A stretch of DNA of 64,000 bases, from positions 1-64,000 of the forward strand of contig PHDA01000006.1 in NCBI GenBank assembly GCA_002842465.1, written 5' to 3'. The translations under genes were made by a program, and so were the position numbers. Positions 22,660-25,044 of the stretch are shown one piece after another. The DNA comes from Bacteroidetes bacterium HGW-Bacteroidetes-7. GTDB lineage: Bacteria; Bacteroidota; Bacteroidia; Bacteroidales; UBA932. Position 1 is the first letter of the stretch. Each line of letters opens with the position of its first letter. The notes beneath the pieces are model-generated. The model was given only the letters and a program-made list of their open reading frames with translations, had not been told where the DNA came from and searched no databases.

Positions 22660-24195
22660 TTATTTAGCAAAGCTTACCGAGCGAGTCTCTCTGATTACAG
22701 TTATTTTAACCTGACCGGGATAAACCAGTTCATCCTGAATTTTCTTTGCAATATCGAGAGACAGTTGTTCAGAATCTTTATCTGAAACGTACTCGCTGCC
22801 TACGATAACCCTAAGCTCCCTACCTGCTTGAATAGCGTATGATTTAGTAACACCAGGATAGGAGAGGGCAAGATCTTCCATCTCTTTTAGCCTTTTAATA
22901 TACGACTCAATAACCTCTCTTCGGGCTCCCGGCCTTGAACCGGAAATAGCATCACTTACAAGGACAAGAGGTGAAATTAAAGAGTTCATCTCGGTCTCTT
23001 CATGGTGGGCACCTATAGCGTTGCAAATCTCAGGTTTCTCTTTATATTTTTCGGCTAACTTCATACCCAGTAATGCGTGTGGCAACTCCGGATCTTCGTC
23101 GGAAACCTTTCCAATATCATGTAGTAAACCGGCTCTTTTAGCCGTTTTTGGGTTAAGTCCAAGTTCAGATGCAACAGTTGCTGCAATATTTGCAACCTCT
23201 CTTGAGTGCTGTAGCAGATTCTGACCATAGGATGAACGGTATTTCATTCGTCCAATCAGTTTCACCAACTCAACGTGCAATCCATGAACGCCAAGGTCTA
23301 TACATGTTCTTTTTCCGGTTTCAAGAATTTCATCGTCAAGCTGCTTTTGAACTTTGGCAACTACCTCTTCAATTCTTGCAGGGTGAATACGACCGTCAGT
23401 AACCAGCTGGTGAAGTGCCAGACGGGCAACCTCTCTTCTGACAGGATCAAATGCTGAAAGAAGTATCGCTTCAGGTGTGTCATCAACAACTATCTCAACG
23501 CCGGTTGCCGCTTCAAGAGCACGTATGTTTCTTCCCTCTCTTCCAATAATTCTTCCTTTGATTTCGTCACTCTCAATATTGAAAACAGTCACCGCATTTT
23601 CAATAGCAGTTTCAGGTGCGATTCTCTGGATTGTATTGATAATGATTCTTTTTGCCTCTTTACTTGCTGTAAGCCTGGCTTCATCCATTACCTCGCTTAT
23701 GTATGACATTGACTGACTTTTTGCTTCAGACTTCATAGTTTCAATAAGCTGGTTCTTAGCATCCTGAGCTGATAATCCTGCAATATTTTCAATTTTTTGA
23801 ATAGCCTCCAGTCTTAATTTTTCATACTCTTCACCTTTTCTTTCAACAATTTCTTGCTGAAGCTTAAGGTTGTCTCTGATGGCGTCAACCTCCCTTGTCT
23901 TTTTTTGAACTTCGGAATTTTGTTGATTAAGTACAAGTTCGCGTTGTTTAAACTTTGCCTCTTGTTGAATTACATGATTTGAACGTTCGAGAATCTGTTG
24001 TTCATGCTCGGATTTGAGTTGCAGAAACTTCTCTTTGGCTTGAAAAATTTTCTCTTTCTTAATGTTCTCACCGTCTTGTTCTGCGCATCTTAATATTTCG
24101 TCTCTTCTTCTTTTAAGGATAATATTGTTTCCCACATAATAGGCAACGCCAAAGCCTGCCAGTGCGGGTAGCAAAATAGTTAGTATAATTTCCAT
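22660..24195 (-). CDS. rny: Ribonuclease Y
   Basis: N-terminal TM and coiled coil; KH domain ([29 protein letters not shown]); HD domain (GLLHDIGKV...[11 protein letters not shown]). Confidence 0.97.
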
Positions 24196-24229
24196 TTTTA
24201 AGTTTATATATATGTAATGTGTTGGGCAA

Positions 24230-24420
24230 GTTAAAAAAGCCGTTGATCTAGCTGTTTAGGCTAAAATCTTATAAACAAGATTTGAGCTCCGATTATTGAT
24301 CGCAAACGTCCAACGTCCCGTAAACGGAATCCCCGAAGGTAAATAGGCCTGTTTTTGATCATCGAGTTGGCTCGGTATTTTAATAGTGTTGATTTTGGCA
24401 AAGAGCTAAACCAACGGCTA
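24230..24420 (-). ncRNA. ssrS: Structured ncRNA between zapA and rny, 6S RNA (ssrS)-like
   Basis: About 190 nt; terminal pairing agccgttg/caacggct (24412-24419 with 24238-24245), a second helix gtttagct/agcctaaac, 3'-side hairpin aaatctt-ataaac-aagattt (24264-24283), distal helix UGAUC..AAAC/GUUU..GAUCA, ends in a T tract. Confidence 0.68.
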
Positions 24421-24436
24421 AACTAAAATGGCCGAA

Positions 24437-24730
24437 TCAGCTAAGATTGATTTTGATGTATTCGTCAAGAAGTGTATCGAGTGAGCGCAACTCATCAGTT
24501 ATCTGATTGGCCTCCTCTTTTTGTTCTGCCTCAATTAACCTGATTACAAATTGCAACAGAGCCATTGAAAGAGCATCCTGTGTATCACGATTTGCATACC
24601 TCTTTTTATAGAGTGCAATTTTTTCGTTGATAATCTTGGCCGCTGCTCTGATCTTCTCCTCGTCATTAGCGGGGATTCTCAGTGGGTAGTAGCGGTCAGC
24701 GATGCTGATTTGTATTGATTGTTGTTCCAT
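24437..24730 (-). CDS. zapA: Cell division protein ZapA
   Basis: Small ZapA-like protein (ISIADRYYPLRIPANDEEKIRAAAKIINEKI), upstream of rny. Confidence 0.85.
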   Translation of the reverse strand: MEQQSIQISIADRYYPLRIPANDEEKIRAAAKIINEKIALYKKRYANRDTQDALSMALLQFVIRLIEAEQKEEANQITDELRSLDTLLDEYIKINLS

Positions 24731-24733
24731 TGC

Positions 24734-25027
24734 TTAATCATTTAAAAGAGCTATACACTTGTCTATCTCTTTCACTATCTTACCAATCTTTTGCTTAGCC
24801 TCCTTAACATCGGTCGATGATGTCTTGAAAGCTTCAACCAATTGTAATTTGTTTACTTTTTCTTCCAGTTCCTTTATTTTGTTAATATTCTTTTCCTCTT
24901 CTGCCTTGCAGATAATGAGCTCCTGCGACAACTTGCGGTTATCAGCAGCAACTTGTTCGTATTTTGAGATTATTGTCTCAATTTTTGTCTTTAGTCCGTT
25001 AATGACTGTTTGATAATCTGTGCTCAT
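24734..25027 (-). CDS. Coiled-coil protein, hypothetical, paired with ZapA
   Basis: 97-aa heptad-rich protein; start MSTDYQ (25027) preferred because a -7 element lies at 25045-25052. Confidence 0.65.
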   Translation of the reverse strand: MSTDYQTVINGLKTKIETIISKYEQVAADNRKLSQELIICKAEEEKNINKIKELEEKVNKLQLVEAFKTSSTDVKEAKQKIGKIVKEIDKCIALLND

Positions 25028-25044
25028 AATCTTTCGTAGCAACG

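Follow-up and report, generated by a model that had tools for sequence, protein, structure and literature searches.

Does the gap between zapA and rny in this Bacteroidales genome hold a structured RNA and, if so, of which kind? The intergenic region (positions 24195–24437 of the window, by which we mean the whole 64,000-nucleotide stretch of DNA analysed) lies between two minus-strand genes, zapA upstream (24437..24730; Pfam PF05164 ZapA, E 4e-17) and rny, encoding RNase Y, downstream (22660..24195; Pfam RNase_Y_N, KH_1 and HD). The original prediction had placed a closed rod resembling 6S RNA in this gap. 6S RNA imitates an open promoter and sequesters RNA polymerase, and it belongs to the small group of global regulators that consist of RNA. 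We consider it highly probable, at about 0.93, that the locus encodes the 6S RNA of the organism, its role at the polymerase being assigned by analogy.

The gene occupies 24231..24420 on the minus strand, as placed by a relaxed match to the Rfam model Bacteroidales-1 (RF01693; 24232–24419), a match to our own covariance model R1 (24233–24420) and homologues. Its 5′ end falls near 24419 and its 3′ end in a U tract near 24233, giving an RNA of 188 nt, close to the predicted size of about 190 nt, with a closing stem, a large bubble, a long apical stem and the U tract. The closing stem pairs 24405..24419 (5′ strand, AGCCGUUGGUUUAGC) with 24238..24252 (3′ strand, GCUAGAUCAACGGCU), both strands being supported by the fold and by compensatory changes. 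The prediction had described an 8-bp terminal helix followed by a second helix; the closing helix is present and slightly longer, at 15 bp when G-U pairs are counted. The 5′ strand of the central bubble (24374..24404, UCUUUGCCAAAAUCAACA...) is unpaired, formed no structure when folded alone in any of 21 sequences from the genus and its closest relatives, and consists of columns that are invariant or nearly so in this set; it is likely, by analogy, to be the template for product RNA (pRNA). On the opposite side of the bubble lies the expected hairpin (24264..24283, AAAUCUUG UUUA UAAGAUUU), of 8 bp where 7 bp had been claimed, and an AAAUC-anchored hairpin of 7–9 bp recurs in 20 of the 21 sequences. 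The distal helix was also found as described, in the form of an apical stem (24284..24373) supported by fold and covariation and ending in a two-hairpin head, with CCUUCGGGG at 24331–24339 and CCGUUUACGG at about 24317–24328. The T tract of the prediction corresponds to a run of A at 24233–24238 read in reverse, which on the minus strand is a terminator-like U tract (24233..24238), conserved as CGGCUUUUUU in the genus; the RNA ends in AACGGCUUUUUU. A closing stem, an open 5′ bubble strand and a 3′ bubble hairpin are the anatomy of the 6S RNA class, and at this locus the architecture of closing stem, large central bubble and long apical stem is under evolutionary constraint.

The closed rod, predicted without reference to strand, was borne out on the minus strand, with a folding energy of -56.9 kcal/mol (z = -3.3). 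The plus strand of the locus folds comparably (z = -3.75) because the rod is near-palindromic, and folding energy alone is therefore not decisive for strand. R1 scored 217 bits on the minus strand versus 35 bits on the plus strand, and we assigned the RNA to the minus strand because the homology models, the orientation of the two flanking genes and the 3′ U tract all point that way. The 35-bit antisense match (24237–24424) likewise reflects the near-palindromic rod, and automated annotation could on this account put the RNA on the wrong strand.

The search for a dedicated promoter was negative: across relatives no TAnnTTTG motif, the Bacteroidota -7 box, keeps a fixed distance to the RNA 5′ end, and the minus strand has no sigma-70-like site at the locus. 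Many relatives have a UAAGGUUUUG-like stretch in the 3′ bubble strand, which was considered by eye as a possible mimic of the sigma-A -7 box and discarded, its spacing being unfit for TAnnTTTG. The candidate transcript may be independent or processed from the zapA message.

We searched the window with Rfam models and found no RNA family at the curated (gathering) thresholds. At a relaxed threshold the best match at the locus was Bacteroidales-1, aligned along its full 179 model positions; it scored 31.1 bits, the cut-off being 60 (E 0.001 in a 251-base search). 6S-Flavo (RF01685) came second, with all of its 108 positions aligned and a score of 21.4 bits, the cut-off being 85. Two of the three models named in the original prediction ranked first and second, and both fell below the gathering score, which is a curation threshold. 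When the whole genome was searched (2.39 Mb in 42 contigs, an assembly 92% complete), the locus was the best match to RF01693 (E 0.002, the next match having 0.42) and the sole match to RF01685 at E up to 10. Two models that were built separately thus agree on one place. The general 6S model RF00013 had no match in the genome at E up to 10. The prediction had said that a better 6S candidate elsewhere in the genome would count against it; none emerged from the RF01693, RF01685 and RF00013 searches, and within this 92% complete assembly there is about one copy. We therefore class the RNA as a Bacteroidales-type homologue of 6S RNA that is an above-threshold member of none of the three Rfam models.

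R1 was built from the genus sequences. Homology to Bacteroidales-1 proved whole-length and reciprocal: the locus aligned to model positions 1–179, and R1 recovered L009, a 136-bit RF01693 member, at full length with 50 bits. At E up to 0.01, R1 matched 67 of 295 genomes of the order. A second model, R2, was built from 60 order-wide sequences and found the RNA in 265 of the 295 genomes (E up to 0.001), nearly always once in each; the E-values of both models are rough, and some of the loci used to train R2 come from these very genomes. The curated RF01693 cut-off was reached in 55 of the 295, so that most Bacteroidales 6S RNA is missed at the Rfam threshold. The RNA gene is conserved, covarying and essentially single-copy, and homologous to the 6S families of Bacteroidales and Flavobacteria.

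The position of the gene was compared across the phylum. A search of 297 genomes of the phylum with RF01685 gave matches in 37, and all of the best 30 loci examined lay between zapA and rny; R1 recovered each of these 30 6S-Flavo loci at the same position. RF00013 matched 59 of 297 genomes, all 59 belonging to the same phylum but to other classes and all matching below its cut-off, and the best 20 loci examined also lay, without exception, between zapA and rny. Within the order, the same was true of 25 of the 30 R1 loci examined. The locus is thus orthologous in position to the recognised 6S genes of the phylum (30/30 RF01685 and 20/20 RF00013 loci), and as loci of the Bacteroidales-1-like, 6S-Flavo and RF00013 types share the zapA–rny slot, synteny supports the 6S identity. 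The prediction had appealed to the zapA neighbourhood of 6S RNA in proteobacteria; the RF01685 and RF00013 loci now place that neighbourhood in Bacteroidota itself.

The surroundings of zapA were also recorded. Directly upstream of it lies a minus-strand ORF (24734–25042; likely start 25027, 97 aa) that is coiled-coil-looking and has no Pfam match. Across the phylum, 176 of 183 loci with zapA have an ORF ahead of it, mostly of 89–111 residues, where zapB is found in the proteobacterial zapB-zapA-6S array (PMC7641849). Three genomes of other classes (L184, L186 and L189) have RF00013 matches between zapA and rny, and an apparent end of pheT, recognised by eye, upstream of the coiled-coil ORF; the gene order there is possibly pheT, coiled-coil, zapA, 6S, rny.

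A rival reading is that the RNA is a conserved Bacteroidales-1-type non-coding RNA that does something else, for example as a protein-binding or base-pairing sRNA. Bacteroidales-1 was originally given as a candidate RNA only (PMC2864571), and Rfam grades its 6S role as 'suggested'. Against this stand the slot common to 6S-Flavo and RF00013 loci, the cross-recovery of these loci by one model, the bubble architecture with its open 5′ strand, and the report of a 6S RNA with pRNAs in B. thetaiotaomicron, where two classes of product RNAs accompany the detected Bacteroides 6S RNA (PMC7366714). We regard a function other than that of 6S RNA as very unlikely.

The RNA also immediately precedes rny, is read the same way and has a U-tract end, an arrangement alike in the 25 of 30 R1 loci above, so it might be read as a cis-regulatory leader that senses, for example, the level of RNase Y and attenuates rny through its terminator-like end. 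Six genomes of the order argue otherwise, as in these the RNA lies outside the zapA–rny slot (L009, L131, L133, L135, L143 and L146), and two of these genomes, L009 and L146, carry it on the strand opposite to both neighbours. In the genomes with a relocated RNA, zapA and rny are still adjacent, separated by a gap of about 95–145 nt that holds only a simple terminator, and the RNA is therefore a stand-alone gene and no required leader of rny. The fold is moreover self-closing, with no evident alternative fold into rny, and its homologues match 6S families. The relocated copies lead us to reject the leader, a reading to which we give scarcely any probability. Relocation out of the slot was seen in several families of the order.

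Evidence that the fold is maintained by selection came from covariation, which the original prediction had proposed to seek across zapA–rny gaps and which was strong both in the genus and in the order. The genus set comprised 21 distinct sequences from the same genus or closest relatives, including loci of Bacteroidales bacterium CF, GWF2_40_14 and HGW-Bacteroidetes genomes, each with zapA upstream and rny downstream, and was aligned by sequence only. Across the 39 pairs, 98.9% of cells pair; compensatory changes occur at 9 pairs, compared with 3.6 in shuffled alignments, and 34 cells are changed on both sides, compared with 9.9 when shuffled and at most 3 with the partners slid. Three pairs of the closing stem carry such changes (U-A to C-G and G-C to A-U, for example). 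The distal stem shows A-U to G-C in 7 sequences and U-A to C-G in 10, and the apical hairpin C-G to U-A in 8; in the numbering of A1, the apical-stem pairs 61:135, 62:134 and 100:107 show AU-GC, UA-CG and CG-UA exchanges. Over the 60 order-wide sequences, aligned to R1, both-side changes were found at 38 of 39 pairs and in 481 cells, compared with 120 shuffled and at most 85 with the partners slid, and compensatory changes reach every one of the 10 pairs modelled for the main closing helix. These order-wide counts are favoured by an alignment that was fitted to R1 and so leans towards its structure, for which reason the genus-level count is the stricter test. Covariation at both levels means that the structure is no chance fold or artefact. 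A strong zapA terminator plus chance folding, to which the terminator-like end downstream of zapA and the moderate z-score (-3.3) might lend themselves, is refuted by 188 conserved nucleotides that covary throughout the rod, far past any terminator, and has a negligible chance of being correct.

The 6S RNA identity put forward in the original prediction is thus supported by the relaxed Rfam matches, by covariation and by the uniqueness of the locus in the genome. That it is transcribed, binds polymerase and is released through product-RNA synthesis we infer from 6S RNAs studied elsewhere. The minus-strand transcript, probably made with or just after zapA, would end in the U tract, and in the closed rod into which it would fold the central bubble looks like an open promoter. 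The analogy with those 6S RNAs suggests that it would bind polymerase carrying the housekeeping sigma factor, sigma-A, and would keep it off promoters as growth slows. The polymerase may then copy the 5′ bubble strand into a short product RNA, upon which, on the same analogy, the 6S RNA would be released.

The RNA itself is of a known 6S kind, and the new insight is a modest one, namely the shared zapA–6S–rny slot. As one slot for three catalogued RNA types (Bacteroidales-1-like, 6S-Flavo and RF00013), it provides a simple 6S finder in the phylum and supports joining the Bacteroidales-1, 6S-Flavo and RF00013 families. It further suggests that the zapA–6S linkage is older than proteobacteria. 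In the literature covered, which was partial and did not include the 2014 6S survey, we found no paper that treats 6S RNA, zapA and RNase Y together. A wider proposal, which we advance tentatively and hold to be rather doubtful, is that the linkage is ancient and common to Bacteroidota and Pseudomonadota, and that in Bacteroidota the coiled-coil (ZapB-like) gene, zapA, 6S RNA and rny form a conserved unit, with the neighbouring RNase Y gene supplying the enzyme that matures the 6S RNA or turns it over. If true, cell division, the availability of polymerase and the decay of RNA would all be linked to growth state through such a unit.

Among known RNAs the closest is Bacteroidales-1, for which Rfam notes '6S-Bacteroidales RNA suggested'. 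In addition to the full-length alignment and the reciprocal recovery by R1, the two have AAAUACCGAG, CCUUCGGG, CUCAAAUCUUGU and CGGCUUUUU in common. They differ in that the Rfam model has no pair annotation of the closing stem, and in that the gathering-level member examined (L009) is located away from zapA–rny. Bacteroidales-1 and 6S-Flavo were both described in 2010, when 6S-Flavo was taken as 6S RNA (PMC2864571), and a 6S RNA has been detected in F. psychrophilum (PMC9723704). 6S-Flavo resembles the present RNA in its slot, in its bubble elements and in its recovery by R1 (30/30), whereas it is shorter, the best R1 matches spanning about 160 nt, and the best R1 alignment shows a much shortened head between its GCC and UUGGA elements. 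RF00013 6S (E. coli ssrS, B. subtilis 6S) is unlike the RNA described here in that its model matches nothing in this genome by sequence and structure (E up to 10), and like it in size, in the closing stem, in a central bubble with a 3′ hairpin and in the long apical stem. In beta- and gamma-proteobacteria zapB–zapA is followed by 6S (PMC7641849); zapA is immediately upstream here too, with rny downstream instead of fau/ygfA.
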